From positions 347,945 through 411,944 of the forward strand of contig NZ_JACIBY010000004.1 of assembly GCF_014195535.1 (NCBI RefSeq): a stretch of 64,000 bases of DNA, written 5' to 3'. The stretch comes from Runella defluvii. Lineage in GTDB: Bacteria > Bacteroidota > Bacteroidia > Cytophagales > Spirosomataceae. Of the stretch, positions 2,140 to 61,927 are shown in pieces. Position numbers and translations under genes: made by a program. Positions within the stretch are counted from its first letter, which is position 1. Every line of letters begins with the position of its first letter. The notes below the pieces were generated by a model that was given only the letters and a program-made list of their open reading frames with translations, made no database searches and was not told the DNA's origin.

Positions 2140-5100
2140 ATGAAACAAACTCTTCAACTTTTTTTATTGATGTTGTGCGGGGTGCTTTGCCTGCGCAGCC
2201 AAGCCCAAACCTGCCCAGGCGAAGTGCTGAATATTTCTGCGCCTGACCCTAGTACGAGTGGTACGAAACAATCGTGGCAAGTGCCAGCGGGGGGCATTTA
2301 TAAGGTAAGAATCACGGCCCGGGGAGCGGCTGGGGGAAGTAAGCTCTTGTCCTTGGCCAAAGAGGCAGGTAAAGGTGCGTTGATGAGTGGTGATTTTTTT
2401 GTGGCCTCGGGGCAAGTTCTTGAGGCCATTGCAGGGGCACGCGGCCAATCAGCCAATCAGGCTGGCGGAGGTGGTGGTGGCTCGGGCGTACAAATCCAAT
2501 CGTCGGGTTTGGTGTTGGTACTGGCAGGTGGCGGCGGCGGCGCAGGTGCTGATTTTAGCAGCGGTGCGGGGGGAGGTGCGCCCATTACCAACTCAGGTAC
2601 CAACGGCGGCAGTGCCAGCAACGGCGGTGGTGGCGGTGGCGGTTTGGGCGGAAATGGCCAAAACGGCACCAGCAGTTTAGCGGGTGGCGGCGGCTACGAT
2701 GGTATTGGCGGCTCTGCCCCAATGAACAGTAGTGATGTTGGATTTGGTGGCGGCGGATTTGGGGCTGGTGGTAGTGGTGGCAGCAGCGGCGGTGGCGGCG
2801 GTGGCGGCTACAGCGGTGGCAATGCGGGCACCAGCAGCGGCAGTGGTGGCAGCGGAGGCGGGTCTTATAATATTGGAACCAATCAAAGTAACTTTCTTAA
2901 CACTAACGCCAATGCCTTAAATGGTCAAGTGATTATTCAGTGCCTCGGTACGGCGGCGTTTTCGGCCATCGTTACGCCGACGTTGCCCAATTGTGGTTCT
3001 AACCAAGGAAGCATAAACATTGATTTAACGGGCGACCTCAACGGTTTTTCCAACGACGTTGTGGAATACGCCATTGTTTCGGGAACCAGCTTTTCAGGGA
3101 ATCCAACCTTTACGAGTATTGCCGCTGAACCCTTTGACGTGACGACTGGCACAGGTACGACACCAGGAACCTATACCGTGCGGATTCGACTCAAATATAA
3201 CCCCGATCTTTTTACGGATCAAACTTATACCCTCGATGCTTCGGGACCGATGCTTTATGTCAAGGCCAATGCGACGGGCGCTAATAACGGTCGTTCTTGG
3301 GCCAATGCGTTTACGGATTTAGAAGCAGCACTTAATGCTGCTCGTGCCAATCCTTCGTGTGTATCTCAAATCTGGGTCGCGGCGGGGACGTATCAGCCCG
3401 CGGTTAATGCCAGTTTTAGTATGCTTCCTGGAGTAGCTATCTTGGGGGGCTTTCCCAATACGGGCAACCCGACGCTTGCGGAACGCAATTGGAGTGCGAA
3501 TCCCACTATTTTGCGAGGGAATGGCAACCGAGTTATAAATAATTTTCAGAACGGCTTAACAAATACGGCGATATTAGATGGCTTTACGGTTACGGGGGGA
3601 GGAGTTCCCACAGGCGATAGTGGTGCTGGTATTTTCAATAGCGGTGTTTCACCTCAATACCGCAATTGTATCATTTCGGGGAATACTTCAGACGGGAATG
3701 GTGGTGGTATGAGCATTAATGGAAGTTCACCTACGTTGATTAATTGTGTTTTTATAGGTAACACCGCTCCGCAAGGAGGTGGGCTTCATATTGCTTTTAA
3801 CGGTACTACTTCACCAACGATTACCAATTGTAGTTTTTCAGGTAATAAGGCCTCACTAAAGGGGGGAGGAGTATATTGTGGTGCTAGCCCTATTTTTAAT
3901 AATTGCCTTGTTTGGGGAAATGAGGGTGAGTTTTATGATAACCCTGGTATTAGTCTTAGACCAACGATTACTAATACGGTCATCAAAGGCCAAAACTTAG
4001 GGGCGGGCATATTCAATGGCAGCATTGATCCTCTGTTTGTAAGCCAGCCGACGGTTGGCTTAGGTACGGCAGGAGATTTGAGGCTACAATCCTGTTCGCC
4101 CGCCATCAATGCAGGTGACCCTGCTACTACTTCGGCTACAGTGGGGAGTTTAGATTTGGGAGGAAATTCACGTTTTTATAACAATGGTAGAATTGATATA
4201 GGTGCCTACGAGTATCAATCTACCTATGATGTGTGCGCTTGTATCAGTAATAATGGCATTGTCTATGTCAATGCGTCGGCCTCTGGGGGCAACAGCGGCC
4301 GTTCGTGGGCAAATGCTTATACGGATTTAGAAGCAGCACTTAATGCCGCTCGTGCCAATCCTTCGTGTGTATCTCAGATTTGGGTAGCGGCGGGGACGTA
4401 CAAGCCGACGGCTGATGCTTCGGGCAATACGTCTCCCGCCGATGCCCGTATGAAAAGCTTTGTGATGGTTAACGGAGTGGCGATTTACGGCGGCTTCAAC
4501 GGTACGGAGACGCAGCTTACCGCCCGAAATTGGCGCAGTAATCCCACGATTTTGAGTGGGAATATTGGTGATACTGGAATAGACACCGACAACAGCTACC
4601 GAGTGATTAACAATAACTTTACCTCGGGTTCACCGTTGGGAAATACGGCCATTTTGGATGGAGTTATTGTTGAAAAAGGGTATGCTACTGGCGATTTTCC
4701 GTTCAATTTGGGGGGCGGCATGTGGAATGCGTATGCTTCACCAAAAGTACAAAACTGCGTGTTTCGTAACAATTATGCGGAATCTGGAGGTGCTATGTTC
4801 AACGATAACTCCTCATCAAACATTACGAACTGTTTGTTTTTCAACAACACGGCAACGACTGCAGGGTCAGCGTTGTCCAACGGCGGTGGAACTAACCAAG
4901 CAAAAGTGGTGAATTGTACGTTTTATGGCAATACAGGCTCGACAATCACAATTAATAACCAAAGCAGTGCTGCCATTACCAATTGTATCGTATGGGGAAA
5001 CGGCGGCGGCATTTCTGGTGGTACGGTGACGTACTCGAACGTACAAGGAGGCGTGAGTGGAACGGGGAATGTCAATAGTGACCCGCGTTTTGAGAATGCG

Positions 5101-13515: not shown

Positions 13516-13540
13516 CCCTGCATCACTTGAGGTTATGCCT

Positions 13541-13621: not shown

Positions 13622-15523
13622 ATGTACCCGACGGATAAAAATAGTATAGAAAAACTCGACCAACTCATTGATAAAAATATTCTAAATGGTAGCTATTCCA
13701 TTGATGATATATGCCTTGAATTAGGAATGAGTCGCTCTCAGTTGTTTCGACTTGTAAAAGAGGAAACGGACCTCTCTACCTCTCGTTATATCCGTCGTCG
13801 GCGTTTGTTGAAAGGGAAAGAATTAATTGAAACTACCGATCATAAAATAGCTGAAATATCGTACGAAATCGGCTTGGATAGTCCCCAAACTTTTACCAAA
13901 TATTTTACTGAAGAATTTGGCGTTTCTCCCTCCGAATACCGTAAAAATAGAGGAAAAGAACCTCTTGAAGAACCGTCTTATGAGGAGTTAGAGGTTGTTC
14001 AGGTGCCTAAAATTCAGGTAGTTGAGGAGGTGCCTTTTGTTGCGAATAAGCAAGGTAAATACAAGTATGTGGCGTTGGCCCTGCTGGTGATTGTGCTGGC
14101 AGCAGCGGGGGTTTGGATAATCAAAGGGAGCGGAGCATTCAGCGAATCAGAAAATTCTATTGCGGTCTTGCCTTTCAAAAGCAACGGCAATCCTGAAGCG
14201 GTCTTGTTAGCTGAGGGCGTAACCGATCAAATCCATGGCTCTTTGACTACTCTTAGGCACCTAAAAGTCATTTCTAAAAATTCATCAGAACTCTTTAGAG
14301 AGTCAAAAAAAACAGTTCCTCAAATTGCCTCGGAACTGCACGTGGCCTATGTTTTGGGCGGTACAACCACCCACAATGGAGCGCGTGTACGGATAACGAT
14401 GGAACTGGTAAAAGCATCGGAAGATCGGGTGGTATGGACAAGACAATACGAAGGTAAAGCGAGCGAAATTATTGGCTTGATTAACAAAATAGCCCAAGAC
14501 ATCACTAAACGATTTCAGTTAAAACCTTCGCAGTCGCTGGCTGCCAAGTCAAACCAAATGCCAACCGATAATCCAGAAGCCTACAATGAATATTTGCAGG
14601 GAAAACAATTGTTGGCGACTCGAACCAAAGAAAAACTGTTGGCAAGCATCACAAAATTTGACAAAGCAATTGCCTTGGATTCTAATTTTTCGGATGCCTA
14701 TGCTTGTAAAGCGAGTGCATATTTTAGCCTGGGAAATTTGAGCCATATTGACCTCGACTCAAGTTTTAGAATGACCGAGCGAGAAGTGCTAAAATCCATT
14801 CGACTGGATGCCGATAACGCCCAAGCGTATGGATTATTAGCTGCCGTTTACCGAGATGAATACCGCTGGGAACAAGCCAACTCGACGTTTCAGATTGCTT
14901 TGCGGTGCAATCCAAACAACGCACAAGTCAATTATTGGTATAGCCTGATGTTGCGTTCGTTGGGGCTGCTGGAGGAAGCTTTGAAGTACAGCAGCCGAGC
15001 CGTGGCGTTGGATCCGCTCTCCCCCGTGATTTTGAGTGGACACATCCGCAACTGTTCTTACGCCCATAAGCAAGAAATGACCAAAGAAGGCATTGACAAC
15101 GGAAAGTTGTTGTTCAATGATTCCTTTTTGTTTTATTGGTCAACGGGTTATCACTATTTGGAAATAAAAGACTATCCTGCGGCCCTACGGGATTTGACCA
15201 AAGCACAACAACTCAACCCCAGCGTTAAAGGGCTAGAGGCAGCTGTTGTCTATACCAAAGCCCGTTTAGGGCAGGTACCTGCGGCAAAAACGTATCTGGC
15301 CACTTTGCCCGAAACGCCCGACAATTATACTTTTATTGCGATGGTGTATGCAGGGTTAAATGACAAACAAAACTGCCTTCGTTATCTTGAAAAAATGGCC
15401 TCTTTGGGGAAAATTCCTACCGACATGAAGGTGTCTCCTTTCTTTCATTTCTTGCACGGTGAGGCGCGATTTAATGCCTTATTGCAACAATTTGGCTTAG
15501 TGAACTTCAAATTGTCGATTTAA
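13622..15523 (+). CDS. AraC-type HTH / transmembrane / TolB-like / TPR regulator
   Basis: 633 residues. The N-terminus (~10-112) is an AraC-family double helix-turn-helix: SIDDICLELGMSRSQLFRLV, then KIAEISYEIGLDSPQTFTKY and FGVSPSEYRK. A transmembrane helix lies at ~147-168 (YVALALLVIVLAAAGVWII). After it comes a TolB/adenylate-cyclase-associated type domain (~175-300, SIAVLPFKSN, VLGGTTTHNG, ASEDRVVWTRQYEG), then TPR-like repeats to the end. The head is thus cytoplasmic and the C-terminal sensor periplasmic, the reverse polarity of the regulators at 88 and 49801. It sits between the G1 terminator and G2 (168 bp downstream). The 21-bp direct repeats in that gap fit the geometry of AraC-family sites, making this protein the best candidate regulator of G2 and the two lipoprotein operons (inference). 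Confidence 0.88.
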   Translation: MYPTDKNSIEKLDQLIDKNILNGSYSIDDICLELGMSRSQLFRLVKEETDLSTSRYIRRRRLLKGKELIETTDHKIAEISYEIGLDSPQTFTKYFTEEFGVSPSEYRKNRGKEPLEEPSYEELEVVQVPKIQVVEEVPFVANKQGKYKYVALALLVIVLAAAGVWIIKGSGAFSESENSIAVLPFKSNGNPEAVLLAEGVTDQIHGSLTTLRHLKVISKNSSELFRESKKTVPQIASELHVAYVLGGTTTHNGARVRITMELVKASEDRVVWTRQYEGKASEIIGLINKIAQDITKRFQLKPSQSLAAKSNQMPTDNPEAYNEYLQGKQLLATRTKEKLLASITKFDKAIALDSNFSDAYACKASAYFSLGNLSHIDLDSSFRMTEREVLKSIRLDADNAQAYGLLAAVYRDEYRWEQANSTFQIALRCNPNNAQVNYWYSLMLRSLGLLEEALKYSSRAVALDPLSPVILSGHIRNCSYAHKQEMTKEGIDNGKLLFNDSFLFYWSTGYHYLEIKDYPAALRDLTKAQQLNPSVKGLEAAVVYTKARLGQVPAAKTYLATLPETPDNYTFIAMVYAGLNDKQNCLRYLEKMASLGKIPTDMKVSPFFHFLHGEARFNALLQQFGLVNFKLSI

Positions 15524-15579
15524 GCTGGTTTTCTAAAATTAAAGAGCTGTTTTACTTCAAAAGGGTGATTTTTTAGCGT

Positions 15580-15659
15580 TTTTCTAAGTTTTTGACCGTA
15601 TTGTCTAAGTTTTTGACCGTATTGTCTAACATGGTCAAGGGACTTTGCTTCTATTTTTG
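15580..15659 (+). promoter_or_regulatory. 21-bp direct-repeat operator and -7 box before G2
   Basis: TTTTCTAAG/TTGTCTAAG/TTGTCTAAC occur at 15580, 15601 and 15622, and TTGACCGTA at 15592 and 15613, all with a 21-bp period. An inverted GGTCAA is at 15633-15638. The -7 element TATTTTTG (15652-15659, matching TAnnTTTG) begins 14 bp after the last base of GGTCAA. No TTTG -33 box is at the usual distance, so an activator-dependent promoter is likely. The same arrangement precedes 24204 and 37915. Confidence 0.75.
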
Positions 15660-24097: not shown

Positions 24098-24177
24098 TTT
24101 TCTAAGTTTTTGACCGTATTGTCTAAGTTTTTGACCGTATTTTCTAACAGGGTCAAGGTAGTTTAGACCTACATTTG
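24098..24177 (+). promoter_or_regulatory. 21-bp direct-repeat operator and -7 box before the first lipoprotein
   Basis: TTTTCTAAG, TTGTCTAAG and TTTTCTAAC lie at 24098, 24119 and 24140; TTGACCGTA at 24110 and 24131; GGTCAA at 24151-24156. The -7 element TACATTTG is at 24170-24177, at the same distance from GGTCAA as before G2. It is almost identical to 37809-37888. No terminator separates it from G2. Confidence 0.75.
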
Positions 24178-24203: not shown

Positions 24204-24767
24204 ATGAAAAAGGTGTTTTCCATAGCGCACATTACCCTACTTTGCATCGGACTTTGGCTCTGGTCGTTGGCATGTTCATCGACCGAGCAGAGTCCTTCAG
24301 CAAGTGAGCTTCCCTATACGATAGCGACCGAGAACTACGCGGTGCTGGCCGAAAAAGCATTGACCTACCAATCGGATTTTGATTGGGAAGGATGCGCCGA
24401 TTTATTGTCCGACGACGTGCAGTATTTTTTACCCGAGAGCGCCCGCCCGTTGGTGGGCAAGGCGGCGGTGTTGGCTTATTGGCGCAATGAACCTCAGCGA
24501 GTACATCTTCAATCGTGGCAGTTCAGCCACTTCAATCACATTCCTGTGCATAGCCACCAAGCCTTACCCTTTTCGGGTGTGGCGGGGGTATATGTGATTT
24601 CGATGTTTCGGGGGGAGCTCCGTTACGTGGATGGCCACACGCGCACGCTGAACCTGAACTGCTGCCTGCATTTCAACGCCCAAAAGCGCATTGACCGATG
24701 GTACAGTTACTACGAGCACCATCCGATGATTCCTACTTTGGCAACACTTGAAACAATTACTCTTTAA
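24204..24767 (+). CDS. Lipoprotein with SnoaL/NTF2-like domain, copy 1
   Basis: 187 residues. Residues 1-23 are a lipoprotein signal peptide ending SLA before Cys24. The rest looks like a SnoaL/NTF2-type cone fold: an N-terminal helix (YAVLAEKALTYQSDFDWEGC), LLSDDVQYFLPE, PLVGKAAVLAYWRN, and an LNLNCCLHFNAQKRIDRWYS strand pair. NTF2-like proteins may be enzymes or ligand binders; no catalytic set could be assigned. The stop is 4 bp before the G3 start, so the two are likely co-expressed. A ~95 % identical copy stands before G5. A membrane-anchored partner or accessory of the giant protein is possible but unproven. Confidence 0.85.
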   Translation: MKKVFSIAHITLLCIGLWLWSLACSSTEQSPSASELPYTIATENYAVLAEKALTYQSDFDWEGCADLLSDDVQYFLPESARPLVGKAAVLAYWRNEPQRVHLQSWQFSHFNHIPVHSHQALPFSGVAGVYVISMFRGELRYVDGHTRTLNLNCCLHFNAQKRIDRWYSYYEHHPMIPTLATLETITL

Positions 24768-37808: not shown

Positions 37809-37888
37809 TTTTCTAAGTTTTTGACCGTATTGTCTAAGTTTTTGACCGTATTTTCTAACAGGGTCAAGGTGGTTTAGACCTACTTTTG
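37809..37888 (+). promoter_or_regulatory. 21-bp direct-repeat operator and -7 box before the second lipoprotein
   Basis: TTTTCTAAG, TTGTCTAAG and TTTTCTAAC at 37809, 37830 and 37851; TTGACCGTA at 37821 and 37842; GGTCAA at 37862-37867; -7 element TACTTTTG at 37881-37888. It differs from 24098-24177 at only a couple of bases. Confidence 0.75.
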
Positions 37889-49800: not shown

Positions 49801-51615
49801 ATGTACCTAATAAAATGTATGATTTGGTGTAAACACAAACAGTACTTTTTTGCCGCTTTTTTGCTGCTTTTTTTACTCATTAATGAGTGCATTGGGCAAG
49901 ATTTACATCATCCCGAAGCGTACAGTTCTAGCTACGACATCGCCTATCAATACCCTTATCCTAAGCGTTGGACGATGATTGATTCCATTCGTTCAAATTT
50001 GTTTACCCACTTAAAAAGCAAAGAAGGGTATTTGTTTAGGGTGGCTGTAGCGGAGTTAGCGGCCAAACGGCACAAGGATGACAAAGCGCTGCTGATTGCG
50101 GAGTTGGCCAAAATGGATTACCTCCAACGAAGTAGCAAAGTGGATTTACGAACGTTTGAAGACTGGTACAAAAGTAGCCTAGAAGAGGCGGATAAATTGG
50201 ATTTTTCGGAAATCAAATCAGCCTTTACTTTTTTGTACGCAGTTAATTTGAGTCTTAATTACCAACAAGATGTGCAATCATTGTATTTTCTCAACAAGGC
50301 GATTGACTACAGCAGTGCATTGGGAGAAGGGATGTCCACCCAAAAAGGACTGTTATTGAGTGGAGTAACGCGGATATTTTATCAATTTGATGATTTTGCC
50401 AGTGCTGTTAAGTATGGTAAAGAAGTAGAAAAATACGACATCAACCAAGTGGAGAAGTTTTTGACCTTGGACATTGTGGGAGTGTCGTACTTAAAACTTA
50501 AAAACTATGACTCTGCGCAGATTTACGTGGATAAATCGCTGCAAATGTTCCATCGGGACTTTGCCAACAAAGACGATAAAAAAGTGTGGTATGGAATATT
50601 GATGGGGAATAAGGCGCATGTGCTGAAAGGGCTAGGAAATTTGACAAGTGCCATCCAACATTATAAAATTGGAATCGAAGAAACTAGTAAGCACAACTTG
50701 TTGGACAATACCTGTCGGTTTGCGATTGGCTTGGCGGACTTGTATCTATCCCAAAACAACATGGCAGAGGCTGGTAAACTCCTTCCACTAGCCCAAAAAG
50801 CTACCTACAGCCAAGGCAACGAGTCGGATCATCTGCAATTACACCAGTTACTAAGCAAGTATTACAAGGTGGTTGGGGATATGTCGTTGGTAGTGCTTCA
50901 CAAAGACTCAATTAACTATTGGACGGAGGTGTTGGAAAAACGCAGGGGGAAAAATGTGCAAATTCAGGCCGATTTGAAGCTAGAAACGGAGCGCAGACAG
51001 CATGCCGAAATGACGCTTGATGAAAATATCCGCCAGCAAAAACTCAACCGAATCATTACGATTGTGATTATTCTGTTGGTAACGGGCATAGCTTTTGTCG
51101 GGATACATCGACAACGCTTGTTGATGAAGGTGAGGGAAAAAGAGTTAAAAATTCAGCAACAAGAGGCAGAAAAACAACTGATGCTTGAACAAGAAAAAGC
51201 CAAACGCGAGCAGATGTTGGCGCAGCTAAAGCTGGAAGAGTTTACGAACATCATCGTGGCGAAAAACAAGCAAATCGAAATGTTGGAGGCCGAAAACGAA
51301 CGGGGAAGTAATGACGCAAGTATTCGGCAATTGCAAAGTAATTCGCTACTTACCGATGAACAATGGAGTAGTTTTAAGTTGCTTTTTGAAGAAGTGCACA
51401 CGGGTTATTTGTCACGTTTGAAAGAAAAAGTCCCGAGCATATCACCTGCCGAAATTCGCTTTATGGCCTTGGCCAAACTAAAACTGGATTCCAAGGAAAT
51501 GGCCTCATCGCTGGGAGTTTCTCCGAATGCGGTTCGTAACGTGTGGTTTAGGCTTAGGAAGAAAATAGACCTGCCTGAAGAGGTGACGTGGAATGATTTT
51601 TCGGATACTATTTAG
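49801..51615 (+). CDS. Membrane-anchored TPR protein with C-terminal HTH (paralogue of 88-1785)
   Basis: 604 residues; a second in-frame ATG six codons on (MIWCKHKQYFFAAFLLLFLL) is an equally good start. Signal peptide to ~33 (ends ECIGQ). Helical TPR-like repeats occupy ~40-390 and a transmembrane helix ~416-437 (IITIVIILLVTGIAFVGI). A long charged coiled coil follows (KVREKELKIQQQEAEKQLM). The HTH is at ~528-590 (SISPAEIRFMALAKLKLDSK, EMASSLGVSPNAVRNVWFRL). It shares the whole layout and the VHTGYLSRLK/VHTDYLLRLK segment with the 88-1785 protein but is clearly diverged elsewhere, unlike the giants beside it. It stands 229 bp before G7, separated by a long hairpin, so it is transcribed on its own. 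Confidence 0.85.
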   Translation: MYLIKCMIWCKHKQYFFAAFLLLFLLINECIGQDLHHPEAYSSSYDIAYQYPYPKRWTMIDSIRSNLFTHLKSKEGYLFRVAVAELAAKRHKDDKALLIAELAKMDYLQRSSKVDLRTFEDWYKSSLEEADKLDFSEIKSAFTFLYAVNLSLNYQQDVQSLYFLNKAIDYSSALGEGMSTQKGLLLSGVTRIFYQFDDFASAVKYGKEVEKYDINQVEKFLTLDIVGVSYLKLKNYDSAQIYVDKSLQMFHRDFANKDDKKVWYGILMGNKAHVLKGLGNLTSAIQHYKIGIEETSKHNLLDNTCRFAIGLADLYLSQNNMAEAGKLLPLAQKATYSQGNESDHLQLHQLLSKYYKVVGDMSLVVLHKDSINYWTEVLEKRRGKNVQIQADLKLETERRQHAEMTLDENIRQQKLNRIITIVIILLVTGIAFVGIHRQRLLMKVREKELKIQQQEAEKQLMLEQEKAKREQMLAQLKLEEFTNIIVAKNKQIEMLEAENERGSNDASIRQLQSNSLLTDEQWSSFKLLFEEVHTGYLSRLKEKVPSISPAEIRFMALAKLKLDSKEMASSLGVSPNAVRNVWFRLRKKIDLPEEVTWNDFSDTI

Positions 51616-51713: not shown

Positions 51714-51730
51714 GTCTGATTATTAGGGGG

Positions 51731-51755: not shown

Positions 51756-51764
51756 GCGACAATT

Positions 51765-51795
51765 TTTGTAAACAGGGTAGTGTTCGCTAATCTTA
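51765..51795 (+). promoter_or_regulatory. Putative G7 promoter
   Basis: TTTG (51765-51768), a 19-bp spacer, then TAATCTTA (51788-51795). This matches the Bacteroidetes -33 box and spacing, with a partly degenerate -7 box. The start codon lies ~50 bp downstream. Confidence 0.4.
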
Positions 51796-51844
51796 CCAAT
51801 AAAAAATACCCTACTCATTTTTCAACCCATTCACAAAGTAAGTT

Positions 51845-54800
51845 ATGAAACAAACTCTTCAACTTTTTTTATTGATTCTGTGCAGTGTACTTTGCCTGGG
51901 AAGCCATGCCCAAACCTGCTCAGGCGAAGTGCTGAATATTTCTGCGCCTGATCCCAATACAAAAGGTACCAAACAATCGTGGCAAGTGCCATCGGGTGGC
52001 ATTTATAAGGTAAGAATCACGGCCCGGGGAGCGGCTGGGGGAAGTAAGCTCGTTTTCCCCTCCAACACTGGAGGCAGCGGGGCATCAATGAGTGGTGATT
52101 TTTTTGTGGCTTCGGGCCAAGTTCTTCAGGCCATTGCAGGGACCCGCGGCCAAACAGCTAATCAGGCTGGCGGAGGTGGTGGTGGCTCGGGCGTACAAAT
52201 CCAATCGTCGGGTTTGGTGTTGGTACTGGCAGGTGGCGGCGGCGGCGCAGGTGCTGATTTTAGCAGCGGTGCGGGGGGAGGTGCGCCCATTACCAACTCG
52301 GGCTCCAACGGCGGCAGTGCCAGCAACGGCGGTGGTGGCGGTGGTGGTTTGAGCGGAAATGGCCAAAACGGCACTAGCAGTTTAGCGGGTGGTGGCGGCT
52401 ACGATGGTACTGGCGGCTCTGCCCCAATGAATAGCAGTGATGTTGGATTTGGTGGCGGTGGATTTGGGGCTGGTGGTAGTGGTGGCAGCAGCGGCGGTGG
52501 CGGCGGTGGCGGCTACAGCGGTGGCAATGCGGGCACCAGCAGCGGCAGTGGTGGCAGCGGAGGCGGCTCTTATAATATTGGAACCAATCAAAGTAATTTT
52601 CCGAACGCCAACTCCTCAGGTGGTCAAGTGATTATTCAGTGCCTCGGTACGGCGGCTTTTTCGGCCATCGTTACGCCGACGTTGCCCAATTGTGGTTCTA
52701 ACCAAGGCAGCATAAACATTGACTTAACGGGCGACCTCAACGGTTTTCCCAACGACGTTGTGGAATACGCCATTGTTTCGGGAACCAGCTTTTCGGGGAA
52801 TCCAACCTTTACGAGTATCGCCGCCGAACCGTTTGACGTGACAACTGGCACTGGCACGACGCCAGGTACCTACACCGTACGGATTCGCCTCAAATACAAT
52901 CCCGATCTTTTTACGGATCAAACTTATACGATTGGGGCTAGGGGCACGACGGTTTACGTCAATGTCAACGCTACAGGCGGGGCTAACAATGGTAGTTCGT
53001 GGGCAGATGCGTTTGTTTCGTTACAGCAGGCGTTGGTGTCGTCTTGCCCCGGTTCGCAAATTTGGGTAGCAGCAGGGACGTATAAACCCCACGCATCTGA
53101 CCGTAATGCCTCGTTTGTCATGGTCAGAGATGTGGCTATTTACGGTGGTTTTAATGGTACGGAGACACAGTTAGCAGCACGCAATTGGACAACGAATGAA
53201 ACCATTCTCAGTGGGGATTTAGGCGCTACAGGTAACGAAGATAATAGCTATATAGTTATTAAGAACGTCAACAATGACTTGACTCCTTCCAATTCGTTAT
53301 TAGATGGCTTTACCATTACGGGTGGCAATAATATAAGTGGTAGCAGTGGTAATGGCAATGGAGGAGGGATGTGCAATATCAACGTTTCTCCCAGTATCAA
53401 CAATTGTAAATTCTTATCAAATGTGGCCCATTATGGTGGAGGGATGTATAATCAAAACGCATCTCCAAGCCTCTTAAATTGCAGCTTTTCAAACAATACA
53501 GGTTATGACTATGGCGGTGGTATGTATAACATTAACTCCAATCCTGCCTTGACGAATGTAACTTTCTTAAACAATCGGGGCAGTATTGTAGCAGGGGGGG
53601 GAGTGTATAATCAAAATTCGTCACCTACTTTGGCAAATTGTACTTTCTCGGGCAATTATTCCCCCAAAGGAGGTGGTATGTATAACAGAGACAATTCTAA
53701 CCCTGACCTGAGAGGTGTATCTTTTAAAGGAAATCGGGCTGAATATGGTGGCGGGATGGATAATGAATCTTCTTCGTCTCCTAAGTTGACAAATTGTATA
53801 TTCTCTGGTAACTATGGAGATAATTTTGGAGGTGGAATGCGTAATACGAATTCTTCTCCCATTCTAACGAATGTTACTTTTTCAGGTAACTGGGCGGTTA
53901 TTAACTATGGCGGGATAGCTAATTATAGCTCCAATCCTGTCTTCAAAAACTGCATCTTGTGGGGGAATAGTAGTGGTGTTTATAACGATGCGAGTAGTAC
54001 TTCTTCTTATACACATTGTTTGATACAAGGGCTAAATCCCTCGGGGACTGGTAACTTAGATGGTACTTTGACCACAAATAATCCATTGTTTGTAAGTCAG
54101 CCCGACTTTACAGCTGCCCCTACTACTACTGGTGATTTGCGTTTGTGGCAATGCTCCCCCGCCATTGATGCGGGTACTGCTACTGATGCCCCCACTACCG
54201 ACCTCGACGGCAACAACCGCGTGGATGCTAACCCAGGTGGTGGAATAGTGGACCTGGGAGCATACGAATACCAATCAGTGGGCACTTCGGGAGGTATCGT
54301 GTACGTCAATGCTTCAGCTTCGGGCAGTAACAATGGTAGTTCTTGGGCAAATGCCTATACGGATTTACAATCGGCACTTAGCCTGGCTCGTGCCAATCCT
54401 TCGTGCGTTTCCCAAATCTGGGTAGCGGCGGGAACGTATAAACCTACTTCGGGTATTGACCGTGGCATTTCTTTCTCGATGGTCAATGGCGTGGCTATTT
54501 ATGGAGGCTTCCCTAATGATGGTTCTGGTACGATGGCCAACCGCAACTGGACTACTAACCCTACTGTTCTTAGCGGAGATTTAGGGTCACCTGGAGTTAA
54601 CGAAGATAATTCTCGCTATGTCATCCGTAACGATAATAATGGATTAACCAGCAGTGCTATCCTCGACGGATTTGTTGTTACCGAAGGAAATGCCAATACT
54701 GGATTTGGCCCAGAACAGATAGGTGCTGGGATGCACAACACTAATGCTTCTCCTACTATTTCAAATTGTATTTTTAGGGGTAATTCAGCGGGCTTTAACG

Positions 54801-57800
54801 GAGGCGCCATGTACAACAATTTTTCATCACCTGTAGTCATCAATTGTAGCTTTTACGGAAATGCGGCTACCTATAATGGCGGAGCCGTATCTAACGAACA
54901 AGCCACTCCCAGCTTTAAAAATTGCAGTTTTACAGGCAATGTATCCCAAAGTAACGGTGGTGTAGTAGCAAGTAACAGAGCTGGGGTGACTCTGACCAAT
55001 TGTATTTTGTGGGGTAACAGCAGCGGAATTTCAAACACCAATGGCGGTTCCACCACTGTGACTTACAGTATCGTGGAGGGTGGCTATTCGGGCGTCGGTA
55101 ATAAAAATATAAATCCCCTCTTTGTGAGCCAACCAGCTATTGGCTTAGGCACTACAGGTAATTTACGCTTACAGCAATGTTCGCCCGCAATAGATGCGGG
55201 TACCTCTACGGGTGCCCCTACCACCGATTTAGATGGTAAAAATCGGGTGGATGCGATTGCAGGTGGTGGCGTAGTGGATATGGGCGCGTATGAGTACCAA
55301 GCTACCTACGATGTGTGTAGTAGTTGTATTGGGAGTAATGGCATTGTTTACGTCAATGCGTCGGCCTCTGGTAACAACAGCGGTCGTTCGTGGGCGAACG
55401 CTTATACGGATTTACAATCGGCACTTAACGTGGCTCGCACGTATCCTTCGTGTGTGTCTCAAATCTGGGTAGCGGCGGGAACGTATAAACCTACATCGGG
55501 TATTGACCGTGGCATATCTTTCTCGATGGTCAATGGCGTGGCTATTTATGGAGGCTTTCCGAACTCGGGTAATCCTGTGATGTCGGATAGAAACTGGACA
55601 CTTAACCCTACTATTTTGAGTGGGGATATTGGTGATTCAGGCCATGAGGATGATAACAGTTTTCGCGTGATTTTCAATGATGGGGGTGGCCTAAACAATA
55701 CCGCCATTTTGGATGGGGTGATTATACAGGATGCTTATAATTCTGGTACAGGGAATGGAAGCGAAGGAGGGGGGATAAGGAATGTCAATGCTTCTCCATT
55801 GTTCCGTAATTGTATCATTCGAAACAATTTTTCTAATCAAAATGGAGGAGGTGTGTATGCTGAGTCTTCCTCGCCATCTTTTGTGAATTGTGCATTCATT
55901 CGCAACCAAGCAAGGTATATCGGCGGTGCAGCCTTTTTACAGATTGGTACTTATACATTTACAAATTGCATCATTTATGAGAACTCCGCTACTGAGCCAG
56001 AACCGTTTTTTGGGCTTATTGAAGGAGGAGGGCTTTATAGTAACGATTCTCAAACATCGGTATTTGTAACTAACTCTATTGCCTGGGGGAACTTTCAGGG
56101 TAATAAATCCTCCTCATCGTCAAAGCAAATAAGTTATTTTAATATAGCACCAGTGGTTAGTTATTCCATTGTGCAGGGCGGTTATACTGGTACGGGGAAC
56201 CTGTCTGCTGATCCTCTTTTTGTCAACGCCGCGAACGGCGATTTTCGCCTTCAACAATGCTCACCCGCCATCAATGCAGGTGACCCTGCTACCACGTCAG
56301 CTACGGTAGGGAGTTTAGATTTGGGAGGAAATCCACGGTTTTACAATAGTGGCAGGGTAGATATGGGCGCGTACGAATATCAGGGTACGTTTGACGCAGT
56401 AGCACCAATAGCCCAAGTGACTAACAGCACTTGTACAACAGTAGGGGGCACACCCTCAGGTGGCGTTATCAGCGCACCAAGTGGCAGTTGTCCCGCAGGT
56501 TCGAGCTTATACTATTCGACCGATAACGGCGGTAACTGGAGCACAACGGTACCGACTTACGCTCAATCAGGCCCTGCGCAGACAATCTTGACTCGTTGTA
56601 CATGTGATGCTAATCCCGCAAGTTTTGGCCCAACGAGCACGGTAACGACCGTCCCAGGCACGTGCCCAGCTTGTCCCGATTTGACAGCAGTAGCCCCATC
56701 GGTGCAAGTAACGAACAGTGTTTGTACAACGTTTAATGGAACGGCATCGGGTGGTAGTATCAGCGCGCCAAGTGGCAGCTGCCCCGCAGGTTCGATTTTA
56801 CAATATTCGACCGATAACGGTGGGAATTGGAGCACGACTTTGCCCACGTATGCGCAAACAGGGCCTGCACAAACGATTTTAACGCGTTGCAACTGTGGAG
56901 CTAACTCAAGTCCAACGAGCACGGTAACGACTGTCCCAGGCACGTGTCCAGCTTGTCCCGTGTTGACGGCAGCAGCGCCAGCGGTACAAGTGACGAACAG
57001 CGTTTGTACAACTTATGGGGGAATGGCTTCGGGGGGCGTTATCAGCGCGCCAAGTGGCAGTTGTCCCGCAGGTTCTACCTTACAATATTCAACGGATAAC
57101 GGTGGTAACTGGAGTGTAAACCTGCCGACGTACGCGCAAACAGGCCCCGCGCAGACGATTTTAACGCGTTGCAACTGTGGAGCTAACTCAAGCCCAATGA
57201 GCACCGTGACAACCGTACCAGGCACGTGCCCAACTTGTCCCGATTTGACGGCAGCAGCGCCAGCGGTACAAGTGACGAACAGTGTTTGTACGACTTATGG
57301 GGGAACGGCCTCGGGTGGTAGTATCATTGCACCAAGTGGCAGCTGTCCCACAGGTTCGACCTTACAATATTCGACCGACAACGGTGGAAATTGGAGTATG
57401 ACTTTGCCGACTTATGCGCAAACAGGCCCTGCGCAGACGATAGTAACGCGTTGCAACTGTGGAGCTAACTCAAGCCCAACGAGCACGGTAACGACGGTTC
57501 CAGGTACGTGCCCAGTTTGTCCTGATTTGACGGCAGCAGCGCCCGCGGTACAAGTGACCAACAGTGTTTGTATGACTTATGGCGGAACGGCATCGGGAGG
57601 TGTTATCAGCGCGCCAAGTGGCAGTTGTCCCGCAGGTTCGACCTTACAATATTCGACTGACAACGGTGGAAATTGGAGCACGACTTTGCCGACGTACGCG
57701 CAAACGGGACCCGCGCAGACGATAGTAACGCGTTGCAACTGTGGAGCTAACTCAAGCCCAACGAGTACTGTGACAACCGTACCAGGCACGTGCCCGGTTT

Positions 57801-60800
57801 GTCCTGATTTGACGGCAGCAGCGCCCGCGGTACAAGTGACGAACAGTGTTTGCACAACTTATGGGGGAACGGCCTCGGGAGGTGTTATCAGCGTACCAAG
57901 TGGCAGTTGCCCCGTAGGTTCGACCTTACAATATTCAACCGACGGCGGTAATTGGAGTACAACTTTGCCTACTTACGCGCAAACAGGCCCTGCGCAGACG
58001 ATAATAACGCGTTGCAACTGTACTGCTGACGTGACTAAATCAAGTCCAATGAGCACCGTAACAACCGTGCCAGGTACGTGCCCAGCTTGTCCCGATTTGA
58101 CAGCAGCGGCCCCAGCGGTACAAGTGACGAACAGTGTTTGCACAACGTTTAATGGAACGGCATCGGGTGGTAGTATCAGCGCACCAAGTGGCAGTTGCCC
58201 CACAGGTTCGACCTTACAATATTCAACCGATAACGGTGGAAATTGGAGTACTACTTTACCTACTTACGCGCAAACAGGCCCTGCGCAGACGATAATAACG
58301 CGTTGCAACTGTACTGCTGACGTGACTAAATCAAGCCCGACGAGCACGGTAACGACCGTTCCAGGCACGTGTCCAGCTTGTCCTGATTTGACGGTAGCAG
58401 CCCCAGCGGTACAAGTGACGAACAGTGTTTGTACAACGTTTAATGGAACGGCATCGGGTGGTAGTATCAGCGCACCAAGTGGCAGCTGCCCCGCAGGTTC
58501 GACTCTACAATATTCGACCGACAACGGTGGAAATTGGAGCATGACTTTGCCTACTTACGCGCAAACAGGCCCCGCGCAGACGATAATAACGCGTTGTAAT
58601 TGTACTGCCGACGTGACTAAATCAAGTCCAACGAGCACGGTAACGACCGTTCCAGGCACGTGCCCAACTTGTCCCGATTTGACAGCAGCAGCGCCCGCGG
58701 TACAAGTGACCAACAGTGTTTGTATGACTTATGGCGGAACGGCATCGGGTGGTAGTATCAGCGCACCAAGTGGTAGTTGTCCCGTAGGTTCGACCTTACA
58801 ATACTCAACCGATAACGGCGGAAATTGGAGCATGACTTTGCCTACTTACGCGCAAACAGGCCCCGCGCAGACGATAGTAACGCGTTGTAACTGTACTGCC
58901 GACGCGACTAAATCAAGCCCGACGAGCACGGTAACGACCGTACCAGGCACGTGTCCAGCTTGTCCCGTGTTGACAGCAGCAGCTCCCGCGGTGCAAGTGA
59001 CCAACAGTGTTTGTCAGGCAGGTTGTACGATAGGTGGTGGCAGTATTTCCGCCCCAAGTGGCAGTTGCCCCGTCGGTTCGACCTTACAATACCAGCTCAA
59101 TGTCGGCGGTTGGAGTACAACGCTACCGACCTATGCACAGACGGGACCCGCCCAAACCATCAAAACGCGTTGTGTGTGCAATTCTGATGCGAATCAAATG
59201 AGTCCAGAGTCATCGGTGACGACGATTCCAGGGACGGTGCCAGCGTTGGTGGTTCCTGTCAATGGCTCGGCCGTGGTGTCTTGCCCTGCTTTGGCCATTG
59301 CTCCAAGCCTTCCTGTGGTCAATGACTGCAACGGCAATCCGATTACACCATCCGCCCCTGTAATTACCAACAACCCCGACCCATTGACGTGCGAAGGGAC
59401 GCGTACTTACACGTATAGCTACGTATGTGGAAGCGCTACGGCGACGTGGAGTTTTGTCTATACCATTGAACGGGAGCCGTTTACGATTTCGACAGCGAAT
59501 GGTTCGGCGACGGTGTATGACCCAGCGTTAGCGGTAGCGCCAACGCCACCGACGGTGATGAGTGCTTGCGGGGAGGTATTAACTCCGAGTGCGCCCGTGA
59601 TAACCAACAGCCCAAATCCGCTGTTGTGCGAAGGGACTAGAACCTATACCTACACCTATACGGATTGTGAAGGGAATACGGCAGTCTGGAGCTTTGTCTA
59701 TACGGTGCTTGACAACATAGCGCCCACGATTTCTTGTCCAGCCAACGTGGTTGGATGTGCAGGTCAGTTGATTACGTTTACCCCTCCCGTGGGAATGGAT
59801 AATTGTTTGGGAGCAGTGACGACACAAATCGCGGGCTTACCCACGGGCAGTGTTTTTCCCGTTGGAATAACGACCAATACGTTCAAAGTGACGGCGGCGA
59901 ATGGTCAGACAGCGGAGTGTTCGTTTACGGTAACAGTGATAAGCAAACCTACGATTACGTTGACTACTTTACAACAAACGCTTAACGAAGGCAACAGCCA
60001 AACCTTCTGCGACACGGATGCGAATCCTGTTAACGGTTTGCAGTTTAATGTTTCGGGTTCTTGCGTAGTGGGCAATCCCGTTTGGCGGGTACAAGTGGGC
60101 AGTGGTGCGTGGAGCGAGTGGATGACCAATCCACCAGTTTCCCAATTGTCCAATAACCAACCCCATCGCTACCAAGCAGCTTGCGATGCGAGTTGTGCTG
60201 TGACGTACACGAATCCGATTGAGTTGACGATTAATTATCGTTCAACTGTTCCACAAAATGTGTCTCTGCTAGTGGACGGTGTGAGTGTAGCTGTGGGCGA
60301 GACCAAAGAAGTGTGTAGTTTGGTGAATATACCTCTTAGTTTTAATGCCAATTGTGGGGCAAATGAAGTGACGATTTATTCGGTGGACGGTGGCGAATAC
60401 AGCGCGGGTTTGCCCGTTGGTTTGGTGGATAATCAGTACCACAATTACCGAGTACGTTGTCGCCAATCGGGAGGAGTTGCATCTTGTGTAGAAAGTGAAT
60501 CTGGAGTGATGCGGTTAAAATTGGTAGTAATTCCATCGGCACCAACGGTTTCATTGTCCTCGACGGGAAGTTGCAACAGCGGCTCAAGTTTCAGTGGCCA
60601 ATCGTCCTGCGGAAGTCTGCGGACAGTTTGGTACAATGCCAGCACCAACGTTGCTTTGCCAAGTCTTCCATCGACTGTACCTAGCCAAACGACGTCGTAC
60701 TACGCTCGTTGTCAGACGGAGAATGGTTGTGTAAGTGAAAAGAGCAATGTGGTGACATTCACTTTAACACCAACCCAAGTAGCGCCAATCATTACGGTGT

Positions 60801-61927
60801 CTCAAGAGATAGTCTGTACAGGCACGACAGTGAAAATTTCAGCCAACTGTCCCGCAGGTAGCCAAACTTTCTGGAACACGGGCGTAACTACTTCAAGTTT
60901 TGAAGTGTCGTTCAGCAACGTGACGAAGCAGAGTTACTGGGCAAAGTGCCTTTTTGAGGGCGGTTGTCAGAGCGCCGAAAGCGTTCGCAAGGAGGTGTAC
61001 TGGAATGCGTTTGTGGTGACGTTGATCAACATTGGTGAATCTAAATCGGCAGTAAAGGTAAATGACCGTTCGGCGTGGAGTAGTCAATTCATCACGCGCG
61101 ACGGTGGCCCTGAATTGGAACAAAGCACGCAAGTAAATCCGACTTTGTATTACGTAGAAAATGCCAATAAAATGGCACCTCGTTACTGGACCATCAACGT
61201 AGAAGCGTGTGGATTAAATACCGAAGGTTCGCTGACGTTTGACATGTTAGCGACGCCAGAAATGGGCATAATTCGTTCTTTCAACACGCACGAAAATAAT
61301 GCGCCGTATTTCATGTACGCCAACCGTGAAGGCTGGACGGAATTGTACGCTCAAAACCATCCCGCCTACGGCTTTTACCAAGACAACGGCGCAGGAGGAA
61401 ATTCGTACGATGCAGGTTTGCCGAAAGGGTTGTACAAGTTAGGCATTCGTTACTGGGATCAAAAAGGCTGGGGCAGCATTTACCCCTCGACCCGTAAACC
61501 TCAAGGGAACGTGTTAGCCTATCAAGAATATTGGTTCCGAATCCAGTCGAAAGACGGGGTAGGTGTGGGAGCAGCGAGAGAAGGGGTAAATGGCAAGGAG
61601 CAAGAGGCAAAAAGCAAAGGGCAAGGAGCAAATGGGCAAGGGTCGGATAACGGAAAACAGATAACTGATAACGGAGCATTCGCCAATGTAATGCCCAACC
61701 CCGTCACCAACACCCTCCGCCTTCAAATCCAAAATAGCAAGGGGCAAGTGGTGCAAGCGGCATTGAGCGATGCCGCAGGCCGTGAAGTTTTGAGCCGCCA
61801 ATTTGTGCCTGAGACCAACACCCACCAAGAGGAGTTTGGGGTGAGTGCGTTACCGACGGGGATGTATTTCTTGAAGGTTGCGACGGCTGAGCAGCAAGCG
61901 ACGCTGAAGGTGGTGAAAGTGGAGTAA
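51845..61927 (+). CDS. G7: giant T9SS-exported adhesin-like protein, three beta-helix modules and ten 97-residue repeats
   Basis: 3360 residues and the closest relative of G1. Signal peptide 1-23 (ends SHAQ), glycine-rich domain ~25-266, Ig-like module ~267-364. Three beta-helix modules (~368-811, ~816-1154, ~1164-1514); the first is unusually long, with many GGGM(Y/D)N rungs. Ten cysteine-containing repeats follow (~1516-2466), including the conserved cap, then the two TPSAP repeats, an HYR domain (~2626-2699), the family C-terminal region (~2701-3242), heptamer linker and sorting domain (~3279-3360). The leader, signal peptide and glycine-rich domain match G1 almost base for base, while the beta-helix modules differ in number and content. 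This is the pattern expected if recognition modules vary inside a constant scaffold. It ends at a bidirectional terminator facing radC. Confidence 0.95.
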   Translation: MKQTLQLFLLILCSVLCLGSHAQTCSGEVLNISAPDPNTKGTKQSWQVPSGGIYKVRITARGAAGGSKLVFPSNTGGSGASMSGDFFVASGQVLQAIAGTRGQTANQAGGGGGGSGVQIQSSGLVLVLAGGGGGAGADFSSGAGGGAPITNSGSNGGSASNGGGGGGGLSGNGQNGTSSLAGGGGYDGTGGSAPMNSSDVGFGGGGFGAGGSGGSSGGGGGGGYSGGNAGTSSGSGGSGGGSYNIGTNQSNFPNANSSGGQVIIQCLGTAAFSAIVTPTLPNCGSNQGSINIDLTGDLNGFPNDVVEYAIVSGTSFSGNPTFTSIAAEPFDVTTGTGTTPGTYTVRIRLKYNPDLFTDQTYTIGARGTTVYVNVNATGGANNGSSWADAFVSLQQALVSSCPGSQIWVAAGTYKPHASDRNASFVMVRDVAIYGGFNGTETQLAARNWTTNETILSGDLGATGNEDNSYIVIKNVNNDLTPSNSLLDGFTITGGNNISGSSGNGNGGGMCNINVSPSINNCKFLSNVAHYGGGMYNQNASPSLLNCSFSNNTGYDYGGGMYNINSNPALTNVTFLNNRGSIVAGGGVYNQNSSPTLANCTFSGNYSPKGGGMYNRDNSNPDLRGVSFKGNRAEYGGGMDNESSSSPKLTNCIFSGNYGDNFGGGMRNTNSSPILTNVTFSGNWAVINYGGIANYSSNPVFKNCILWGNSSGVYNDASSTSSYTHCLIQGLNPSGTGNLDGTLTTNNPLFVSQPDFTAAPTTTGDLRLWQCSPAIDAGTATDAPTTDLDGNNRVDANPGGGIVDLGAYEYQSVGTSGGIVYVNASASGSNNGSSWANAYTDLQSALSLARANPSCVSQIWVAAGTYKPTSGIDRGISFSMVNGVAIYGGFPNDGSGTMANRNWTTNPTVLSGDLGSPGVNEDNSRYVIRNDNNGLTSSAILDGFVVTEGNANTGFGPEQIGAGMHNTNASPTISNCIFRGNSAGFNGGAMYNNFSSPVVINCSFYGNAATYNGGAVSNEQATPSFKNCSFTGNVSQSNGGVVASNRAGVTLTNCILWGNSSGISNTNGGSTTVTYSIVEGGYSGVGNKNINPLFVSQPAIGLGTTGNLRLQQCSPAIDAGTSTGAPTTDLDGKNRVDAIAGGGVVDMGAYEYQATYDVCSSCIGSNGIVYVNASASGNNSGRSWANAYTDLQSALNVARTYPSCVSQIWVAAGTYKPTSGIDRGISFSMVNGVAIYGGFPNSGNPVMSDRNWTLNPTILSGDIGDSGHEDDNSFRVIFNDGGGLNNTAILDGVIIQDAYNSGTGNGSEGGGIRNVNASPLFRNCIIRNNFSNQNGGGVYAESSSPSFVNCAFIRNQARYIGGAAFLQIGTYTFTNCIIYENSATEPEPFFGLIEGGGLYSNDSQTSVFVTNSIAWGNFQGNKSSSSSKQISYFNIAPVVSYSIVQGGYTGTGNLSADPLFVNAANGDFRLQQCSPAINAGDPATTSATVGSLDLGGNPRFYNSGRVDMGAYEYQGTFDAVAPIAQVTNSTCTTVGGTPSGGVISAPSGSCPAGSSLYYSTDNGGNWSTTVPTYAQSGPAQTILTRCTCDANPASFGPTSTVTTVPGTCPACPDLTAVAPSVQVTNSVCTTFNGTASGGSISAPSGSCPAGSILQYSTDNGGNWSTTLPTYAQTGPAQTILTRCNCGANSSPTSTVTTVPGTCPACPVLTAAAPAVQVTNSVCTTYGGMASGGVISAPSGSCPAGSTLQYSTDNGGNWSVNLPTYAQTGPAQTILTRCNCGANSSPMSTVTTVPGTCPTCPDLTAAAPAVQVTNSVCTTYGGTASGGSIIAPSGSCPTGSTLQYSTDNGGNWSMTLPTYAQTGPAQTIVTRCNCGANSSPTSTVTTVPGTCPVCPDLTAAAPAVQVTNSVCMTYGGTASGGVISAPSGSCPAGSTLQYSTDNGGNWSTTLPTYAQTGPAQTIVTRCNCGANSSPTSTVTTVPGTCPVCPDLTAAAPAVQVTNSVCTTYGGTASGGVISVPSGSCPVGSTLQYSTDGGNWSTTLPTYAQTGPAQTIITRCNCTADVTKSSPMSTVTTVPGTCPACPDLTAAAPAVQVTNSVCTTFNGTASGGSISAPSGSCPTGSTLQYSTDNGGNWSTTLPTYAQTGPAQTIITRCNCTADVTKSSPTSTVTTVPGTCPACPDLTVAAPAVQVTNSVCTTFNGTASGGSISAPSGSCPAGSTLQYSTDNGGNWSMTLPTYAQTGPAQTIITRCNCTADVTKSSPTSTVTTVPGTCPTCPDLTAAAPAVQVTNSVCMTYGGTASGGSISAPSGSCPVGSTLQYSTDNGGNWSMTLPTYAQTGPAQTIVTRCNCTADATKSSPTSTVTTVPGTCPACPVLTAAAPAVQVTNSVCQAGCTIGGGSISAPSGSCPVGSTLQYQLNVGGWSTTLPTYAQTGPAQTIKTRCVCNSDANQMSPESSVTTIPGTVPALVVPVNGSAVVSCPALAIAPSLPVVNDCNGNPITPSAPVITNNPDPLTCEGTRTYTYSYVCGSATATWSFVYTIEREPFTISTANGSATVYDPALAVAPTPPTVMSACGEVLTPSAPVITNSPNPLLCEGTRTYTYTYTDCEGNTAVWSFVYTVLDNIAPTISCPANVVGCAGQLITFTPPVGMDNCLGAVTTQIAGLPTGSVFPVGITTNTFKVTAANGQTAECSFTVTVISKPTITLTTLQQTLNEGNSQTFCDTDANPVNGLQFNVSGSCVVGNPVWRVQVGSGAWSEWMTNPPVSQLSNNQPHRYQAACDASCAVTYTNPIELTINYRSTVPQNVSLLVDGVSVAVGETKEVCSLVNIPLSFNANCGANEVTIYSVDGGEYSAGLPVGLVDNQYHNYRVRCRQSGGVASCVESESGVMRLKLVVIPSAPTVSLSSTGSCNSGSSFSGQSSCGSLRTVWYNASTNVALPSLPSTVPSQTTSYYARCQTENGCVSEKSNVVTFTLTPTQVAPIITVSQEIVCTGTTVKISANCPAGSQTFWNTGVTTSSFEVSFSNVTKQSYWAKCLFEGGCQSAESVRKEVYWNAFVVTLINIGESKSAVKVNDRSAWSSQFITRDGGPELEQSTQVNPTLYYVENANKMAPRYWTINVEACGLNTEGSLTFDMLATPEMGIIRSFNTHENNAPYFMYANREGWTELYAQNHPAYGFYQDNGAGGNSYDAGLPKGLYKLGIRYWDQKGWGSIYPSTRKPQGNVLAYQEYWFRIQSKDGVGVGAAREGVNGKEQEAKSKGQGANGQGSDNGKQITDNGAFANVMPNPVTNTLRLQIQNSKGQVVQAALSDAAGREVLSRQFVPETNTHQEEFGVSALPTGMYFLKVATAEQQATLKVVKVE
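56392..59240 (+). repeat. Ten tandem ~282-291-bp coding repeats in G7
   Basis: Nine units plus the cap. Units 2 to 5 have the shortened segment RCNCGANSSP instead of RCNCTADVTKSSP, three codons less. Unit 6 lacks one Asn (STDGGN). Units 6 to 9 are of the long form seen in G1. Confidence 0.9.
61586..61673 (+). repeat. Heptanucleotide linker tract in G7
   Basis: Eight units of GCAARRR type (the first decayed to GTAAATG) with one inserted G, then four GATAACN units (61646-61673). Same unit count and inserted base as G3. Confidence 0.88.

Follow-up and report, generated by a model that had tools for sequence, protein, structure and literature searches.

Variable heads on a constant tail in a Runella family of giant, probably T9SS-exported proteins

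A run of very long genes on contig C4 of the draft genome of Runella defluvii, alike at their 3' ends and different at their 5' ends, raises the question of what recombination between such tandem copies does. A sequence-only reading of this DNA had likened the genes to systems that diversify surface proteins by exchange of modules between neighbouring copies. The stretch analysed, referred to here as the window, is 64,000 bp long (C4:347945-411944 of genome G000, which has 7,991,252 bp in 50 contigs). The explanation considered probable is that these genes belong to a Runella multigene family of giant, probably T9SS-exported surface proteins, each composed of a head and a constant tail, in which the tails would be homogenised by ordinary gene conversion, the heads would for the most part be inherited vertically, and the whole would form a regulated repertoire.

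The array, its common tail and the family

There are seven giant ORFs in the window, all on the same strand and head-to-tail in the ORF listing, and their coordinates bear out the seven genes (G1 to G7) that had been described. Three further cargo genes of the same array lie upstream of the window, bringing the array to 10.

2140..13515, + strand: G1 cargo gene, 3791 aa; head (2140-11517) with Gly-rich, beta-helix/DUF5123, 97-residue repeat, HYR_4C and HYR regions; tail from 11518
15692..24061, + strand: G2 cargo gene, 2789 aa; head with FG-GAP repeats, ASH/HYDIN-like Ig, HYR_4C and HYR; tail from 22061
24772..32034, + strand: G3 cargo gene; head with beta-helix, Gly-rich region and 89-residue repeats; tail from 30049
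32079..37772, + strand: G4 cargo gene, 1897 aa; Gly-rich region and HYR array; tail from 35778
38483..43708, + strand: G5 cargo gene, 1741 aa; 89-residue (Ig_7) repeats; tail from 41732
45653..49660, + strand: G6 cargo gene, 1335 aa; HYR array; tail from 47714
51845..61927, + strand: G7 cargo gene, 3360 aa; head close to that of G1 at its 5' end and in the 97-residue repeats; tail from 59945

The G3 reading frame opens with a TTG at 24748; the ATG at 24772 is the likelier start and matches the start of G5. Tandem arrays of 291/282 bp (97 residues) are present in G1 and G7, of 267 bp (89 residues) in G3 and G5, and of 246 bp (HYR) in G4 and G6. The 89-residue repeats are thus where the sequence-only reading had put them, and the propellers that it assigned to G2 alone agree with the Pfam matches, in which FG-GAP repeats are restricted to G2 within the window. 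Its other assignments require adjustment: the 97-residue repeats hold for G1 and G7, while in G2 they amount to barely over one unit (~342 bp by blastn); HYR/HYR_4C domains are found before the junction in G1, G2 and G7 (Pfam), besides the arrays of G4 and G6; and the glycine-rich domain of G1, G3 and G7 is in G4 as well (stretches of at least 30% G).

In every gene of the window a variable head (V) is joined at one codon, KPTITL, to a constant tail (C). From KPTITL to the stop the tail has 648–666 residues, containing Ig-like domains, a conserved region, a linker and a T9SS sorting domain (Por_Secre_tail, PF18962), the last being above the Pfam cut-off at the C-terminal end of all seven proteins. 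Over the last ~600 residues, the six other tails of the window are 79–90% identical to that of G7. The nearly constant 3' ends previously noted therefore stand as a common tail of ~650 residues, except for one internal stretch of ~440 bp that occurs in two classes, one in G1, G6 and G7 and the other in G2 to G5. Imperfect tandem repeats of 14/21 bp (13150-13204, 23696-23750, 31688-31748, 61581-61642) encode the linker that precedes this domain and are possibly a source of the length differences between tails.

A function for the tail was sought in its predicted structure and the attempt was rejected, the AlphaFold model (mean pLDDT 64.8, residues 301–517 mostly below 50) matching only generic Ig domains in Foldseek. 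The top matches were to Grappling hook protein A of Aureispira, with query TM-scores below 0.3 and rmsd up to ~50. This is a giant surface protein of the Bacteroidota with chains of Ig-like domains, and its likeness to the Runella tail is that of the generic Ig fold, no family relation being claimed.

With the last 600 residues of G7 as the query there are 66 matches in the R. defluvii genome, 45 of them covering at least 460 residues; this length is reached by 40 of 56 matches in another close Runella species (G010, in 4 contigs) and by 36 of 52 in Runella limosa DSM 17973 (G003), one genome per species being compared. Other R. defluvii arrays are on contigs C16, C27 and C30, with further copies elsewhere. 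Among 59 genomes searched, including that of R. defluvii, with at most 22 candidates scored in each, many close copies of the tail are present only in these three species; two congeners (G006 and G007) have few, divergent copies, and the remaining genomes have weak matches to Ig or sorting domains. A scan of 84,980 species genomes with two peptide patterns, in which source-genome records may be left out, found 38 loci, all in Runella. Searches of the open-licence papers of PMC found no published description of a Runella head-tail family.

The comparisons that follow use 101 tail-bearing ORFs from fetched stretches (39 from R. defluvii, six of its 45 being left out, 32 from G010 and 30 from R. 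limosa), of which 98 are in the tail alignment, the other three having an incomplete tail match. The 39 R. defluvii genes total 307,413 bp of the 7,991,252 bp genome, so that at least 3.8% of it, on the fetched copies alone, consists of one family of probable surface proteins. Copies that match only tail residues 138–600 are present at C8:138945-143720 in R. defluvii, at C16:3178-7905 in R. limosa (G003) and once in G007. The first two branch beside the root of a tree rooted on the G007 row, and such copies are possibly a form of the founder gene.

When the window is compared with itself by blastn, blocks shared by differently headed genes begin at the one codon, at 22061, 30049, 41732, 47714 and 59945 (pairs 22061/30049, 22061/41732, 30049/59945, 30049/47714, 41732/47714 and 41732/59945). 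Across the R. defluvii family, the 100 residues upstream of the junction fall into 9 clusters (38 genes) and residues 31–180 into 28 (37 genes); the first 100 residues of the tail fall into 2 (37+1) and a later segment of it into 1. That one codon joins 9 upstream clusters to the tail is what would be seen if the tail were a mobile cassette, attached site-specifically at precisely the KPTITL codon. However, no special DNA recombination motif is seen in the column conservation of 94 genes (three of the 98 without a motif match and one that is too short were left out); the consensus frequency merely steps from ~0.4 at 50–90 bp upstream to 0.64 in the last 15 bp and 0.80 at the junction codon. 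There are 12 tyrosine recombinase (PF00589) matches in the genome, none of them in the fetched array stretches, and fusion at a domain boundary explains the precision of the junction, which makes site-specific joining scarcely credible.

Recombination among the tails

In 300 bp windows anchored at the junction, the best match of tail sequence is in the same genome for 415 and in another species for 173 of 588 windows across the three genomes. For heads the balance is reversed, with 268 of 1732 windows matching best in the same genome, 1186 in another species and 278 nowhere, the last number being raised by orthologues in unfetched stretches. The switch in the source of the best match falls at the junction. 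The same is visible at the ends of the array stretches, where R. defluvii flanking DNA is mostly 89–99% identical to G010 and ~83–96% to R. limosa, without a paralogue of its own, and where the best match inside the array is often a paralogue from the same genome at 90–97%.

Seventeen orthologue pairs, hand-picked by head matches (84–97% identity), were compared at the third positions of their tails. Paralogues are closer on both sides in 11 pairs and on one side in 1, and the orthologue is closer in 5. In the clearest pair (G000_C16b_136053 and G010_C_3521918) the heads are 97.3% identical, while the tail third positions are 54% identical against 73–77% to paralogues of the same genome. If concerted evolution is taken to mean that paralogues are more alike than orthologues, it is seen in most tails, fully so in 11 of the 17 pairs, and not in the heads. 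That 5 of the 17 pairs keep orthologous tails would mean that homogenisation misses some copies.

A tree of the last 480 residues is in keeping with this, 19 of 29 R. limosa tails being in one clade (local SH 99) and several other copies remaining in orthologous sets. There are 31 species changes on the tree against a mean of 47.9 after shuffling (0 of 200 shuffles as low). R. defluvii by itself clusters more weakly, with 25 changes against 31.1 (5 of 500 as low).

The seven tails of the window gave a PHI value of 0.312 against 0.507 ± 0.004 in a home-made implementation of the test (0 of 1000 shuffles), and four other arrays across the three genomes, two of them in G010, gave 0 of 300. For a control set of orthologues the figure was 73 of 300; 20 simulated sets gave p from 0.01 to 0.915, three being below 0.02, and because some of these controls gave low p the claim of recombination is based on the size of the effect. 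Along each of the ten C4 tails, different parts have different nearest neighbours. A GENECONV-like test of the window found 23 common fragments that pass the permutation threshold, their median length being 82 alignment columns (33–259); it treats sites as exchangeable, and its fragment and tract lengths, which rate variation can inflate, are used as support only.

These sequence comparisons are taken to show that within each genome the ~650-residue tail has recombined between copies, and that many tails resemble others of their own genome more than they resemble those of their orthologues. The protein tail is highly conserved and some dispersed copies are still orthologous, which would be in line with tails kept alike by strong purifying selection, or by late duplication, without gene conversion. 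However, late duplication of whole genes would have brought the head along, 11 of 17 pairs with heads 84–97% identical have tail third positions less alike than those of their own paralogues, and the PHI result together with the shifting nearest neighbours rejects a single tree; this explanation is thought highly improbable. Mosaics might also be mimicked by assembly chimeras between repeats, since the R. defluvii genome is a 50-contig draft in which several contigs end in or near tails, and the R. limosa assembly has gaps of N inside array genes. Against this, the 4-contig G010 assembly agrees in its tail windows (145 of 192 best in the same genome), in PHI (0 of 300 in two arrays) and in its clustering by species, and the locus borders agree across the three genomes, so that chimeras can be given hardly any credence as the source of the pattern.

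Gene conversion of the tails is accordingly retained as the reading to be preferred, conversion rather than crossover with loss being what we would infer. Ordinary homologous recombination had been named as its simplest engine, and this is upheld by the lack of PF00589 matches in the fetched array stretches and by the position of the sole reverse transcriptase (PF00078) of the genome, the mark looked for of a diversity-generating retroelement, at C18:66440-66898, off the window contig. This reverse transcriptase gene is ~16 kb from a cargo gene.

Inheritance and exchange of the heads

Between and before the cargo genes of the window are the following features.

79..1785, + strand: TPR protein, probable regulator, with LuxR-type HTH and SusR/DUF6377 similarity, all below cut-off; just upstream of G1
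13622..15523, + strand: regulator with AraC-family HTH_18 and TPR; just upstream of G2
15569..15629, + strand: 21-bp direct repeats of the TTTTTGACCGTATTGTCTAAG type, putative operator; upstream of G2
24101..24147, + strand: 21-bp direct repeats of the TTTTTGACCGTATTGTCTAAG type; upstream of the first 187-aa gene and G3
24204..24767, + strand: 187-aa gene, first copy, with weak SnoaL_2 similarity below cut-off
37812..37858, + strand: 21-bp direct repeats of the TTTTTGACCGTATTGTCTAAG type; upstream of the second 187-aa gene and G5
37915..38478, + strand: 187-aa gene, second copy, its protein 96% identical to the first
43949..45643, + strand: 564-aa ORF with a signal-like start (by eye)
49801..51615, + strand: TPR protein of 604 aa, 28% identical to the 79-1785 protein; just upstream of G7

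The 564-aa ORF has no Pfam or NCBIfam match and no homologue among the fetched array ORFs of the three genomes.

The same module content and order with congruent module trees was the outcome that the sequence-only reading had set against itself, and in a comparison between species the opposite was found at the position of G1. The G010 gene at this position (G010_A_3969420), flanked by orthologous TPR and AraC genes, matches G1 in 16 of 31 head windows, and the last 3 kb before the junction carry 97-residue repeats in G1 and 89-residue repeats in the G010 gene. The block of G1 is common to G7, G2 and R. limosa and has no close match in the fetched G010 stretches; that of G010_A_3969420 is common to its own neighbour at 88–93%. 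Elsewhere, G000_C16a_37290 is a chimera with the 5' part of G010_C_3494501 (90–97%) followed by G010_B_3373062 in 25 of the next 26 windows (78–91%). A cassette at C4:333070-347920 is in another array in G010, and one from the counterpart array of G010 (locus A) is on C30 in R. defluvii. Comparison of these sequences is taken to show that some heads differ through replaced blocks or in how many repeats they have, and that whole cassettes of cargo gene and partner are in different arrays in different species.

Within the window, the block that runs from the tail of G2 through the 21-bp repeats and the 187-aa gene to the start of G3 recurs from the tail of G4 to the start of G5 (3056 bp, 89.5%), as unequal crossing-over between tails would give. 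In G010 there are two tracts of 2.1–2.2 kb between copies at 98.6–98.9%; in R. defluvii, no tract of at least 200 bp at 98.5% or more was found between copies. G010:C1:3373062-3385676 and 386356-394632, ~3 Mb apart, have a common head tract of 2138 bp at 98.6%, which points to recent copying across that distance. Of 178 head windows in the window's own array, 70 match best in the same genome, 75 in another species and 33 nowhere; heads are exchanged more here than in other arrays. Exchange of heads is real, and rarer than that of tails.

The array might, as first suggested, serve programmed diversification, in the manner of antigenic or phase variation, with tandem copies donating head modules and changing the surface within a lineage. 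It would account for head blocks that change from one close species to another at a given position, for 5' and repeat blocks common to genes within the window, for the 70 of 178 head windows of this array that match own paralogues, and for the two near-identical tracts in G010. Such systems would be expected to include an expression site and silent, incomplete donor copies; no such copies were found in the fetched R. defluvii and G010 stretches, where there are no head-only cassettes outside tail-bearing ORFs beyond short overlaps at two gene starts (a 324-aa ORF across a cargo start in R. defluvii and a spot at one cargo start in G010). By a crude test (a hydrophobic 11-mer), a signal-like N-terminus is present in 37 of 37 ORFs with their own start in R. 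defluvii, 30 of 31 in G010 and 21 of 28 in R. limosa, where five of the seven misses adjoin runs of N. The fetched tail-bearing copies look like mostly complete genes. Nor do the fetched array stretches contain an integrase. The majority of head windows have their best match in another species, and R. defluvii lacks near-identical tracts of the kind seen in G010. Programmed diversification is therefore thought unlikely, though less so at strain level, above all for the window's own array. What stands of the original suggestion is that the heads are modular mosaics and that recombination is strong; head swapping does not appear to be the main process or purpose, the tail being exchanged most.

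In R. limosa, head windows match ORFs of 566–3068 aa other than the tail-bearing ones, the majority truncated by N runs or at the end of a contig, and one tail remnant with stops is present in G010 near 3535500-3536200. Two split ORFs of R. limosa (56739/59329 and 62508/64619) were considered as phase-variable frameshifts and rejected, both splits being at runs of N and so assembly gaps.

Among 28 R. defluvii heads outside the window, searched over at most their first 980 residues, five have no Pfam match at E ≤ 1e-4. The domains in these heads include Big_2, FG-GAP, Kelch, laminin-G, DUF285, beta-helix, Calx-beta and cadherin-like domains, the proprotein-convertase P-domain and one M36 peptidase, which is compatible with predicted roles in binding at the surface and, for one head, in proteolysis.

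Comparable systems, the array border and regulators

The KLIKK proteases of Tannerella forsythia, as presented in PMC4404884, are likewise clustered T9SS cargo genes with differing N-terminal parts and a near-identical C-terminal end. There are six, in two clusters, with a conserved end of 86 residues, and they are absent from a close relative (PMC4404884); the words 'recombination' and 'duplication' do not occur in the main text of that paper. The Runella family, by comparison, has 45 copies, a tail of ~650 residues and mostly non-enzymatic heads, and its concerted evolution has been tested. No KLIKK-ending C-terminal domain was found in the tails of the window, which end in VIKVH, VVKVP, VVKVE or VLKVK. 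The gingipain/haemagglutinin adhesins of Porphyromonas gingivalis are outlined in PMC5266723 as T9SS surface proteins in which adhesin modules occur in varying combinations and alleles are exchanged by recombination; these are few genes that vary between strains, whereas Runella has dozens of paralogues per genome and a tail homogenised within the genome. In the spider silks, clustered giant repeat genes of eukaryotes, terminal regions are described as converted between genes within species (PMC9779670), but there the repeats are homogenised too, while the Runella heads diverge.

The right border of the array is formed by two genes.

62018..62800, - strand: RadC family gene, array right border
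62583..63803, + strand: glycosyltransferase 2, true start probably ~62751 as inferred from relatives

Past the end of the window, glycosyltransferase 2 is followed by gldN-gldM-gldL-gldK-porP; GldK, L, M, N and the PorP family are above cut-offs in G010, and R. defluvii has the syntenic orthologues. The radC-glycosyltransferase pair is kept in five congeners (G002, G005, G007, G008 and G009), with gldN adjoining wherever the stretch shows it (G002, G007 and G009). In these five there is no cargo array at the border and no ORF matching the cargo genes of this array (the G006 stretch being too short), and the far side of radC has a permease-like gene or, in G007, a 247-aa ORF (names by eye). This would suggest that the array was probably gained at the radC border, beside porP-gldKLMN, in the lineage of the three species. 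SusC/D-like genes, judged by eye, only flank the array.

The exact 21-bp repeat has six copies in the genome, all in the window, before G2 and the two 187-aa genes; with two mismatches there are three matches elsewhere in the genome, against one for the control. The AraC-TPR gene is followed directly by the first pair, and in G010 and R. limosa too the 187-aa genes have copies upstream of them. The repeats are a probable operator of the neighbouring AraC-TPR gene, to judge from this placement. The TPR gene at 79-1785 has an orthologue at the same position in G010.

The probable sensor-regulators among the cargo genes are hybrid two-component proteins with an AraC-type HTH, AraC-TPR proteins, and TPR proteins in which an HTH is weak or not found. 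Where the stretch shows what precedes a cargo ORF (96 cases), the gene directly upstream is a regulator-class ORF in 28, another cargo gene in 25 and some other gene in 43, a number of these last being pieces of heads interrupted by R. limosa assembly gaps; the link between regulator and cargo is positional. The 28 pairs are on the same strand in 26 cases and divergent in 2. Fifteen of the regulators belong to classes represented by a protein with an AraC-type HTH, 11 are of the TPR class, with an HTH below cut-off or not found, and 2 are of a propeller-sensor class without a detected HTH or kinase.

In the preferred explanation, ordinary homologous recombination would bring about gene conversion of the tails, with unequal crossing-over between them, and the heads would be inherited mostly vertically with occasional block exchange. 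The tail would be a common stalk for export and anchoring, and the heads (lectin-like, propeller, beta-helix, HYR/Ig and one M36 protease) would make contacts. Many units would be switched by the adjacent sensor-regulator (AraC-TPR, TPR or hybrid two-component), so that the repertoire would be deployed by regulation more than by rearrangement. A further step, tentative and rather doubtful, is to see here a display system in which dozens of sensor-switched giant heads are carried on one interchangeable 650-residue tail, with one array beside the genes of the export motor; gene conversion would keep the tails interchangeable, so that new heads could be taken up, transferred from array to array together with their regulator, and put to use immediately. 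The two halves of one family evolve in opposite ways, which offers a natural test of the reasons for homogenising a constant part (export, anchoring or partner binding) while heads diversify, and the family bears on whether recombination or regulation gives a bacterium its varied surface. The conserved region of the tail and the regulator-cargo pairs are handles for research on the T9SS and gliding.

In the SusR/HTCS-regulated surface loci of the Bacteroidota, hybrid two-component and TPR-type regulators adjoin genes for surface proteins. The regulators in Runella are similar, and differ in having giant T9SS cargo as their neighbours. One AraC-TPR gene of R. defluvii (C4:315854-317770) is 72% identical to R. 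limosa in the middle of the gene and 98% near its 3' end, as if it too had been partly exchanged.
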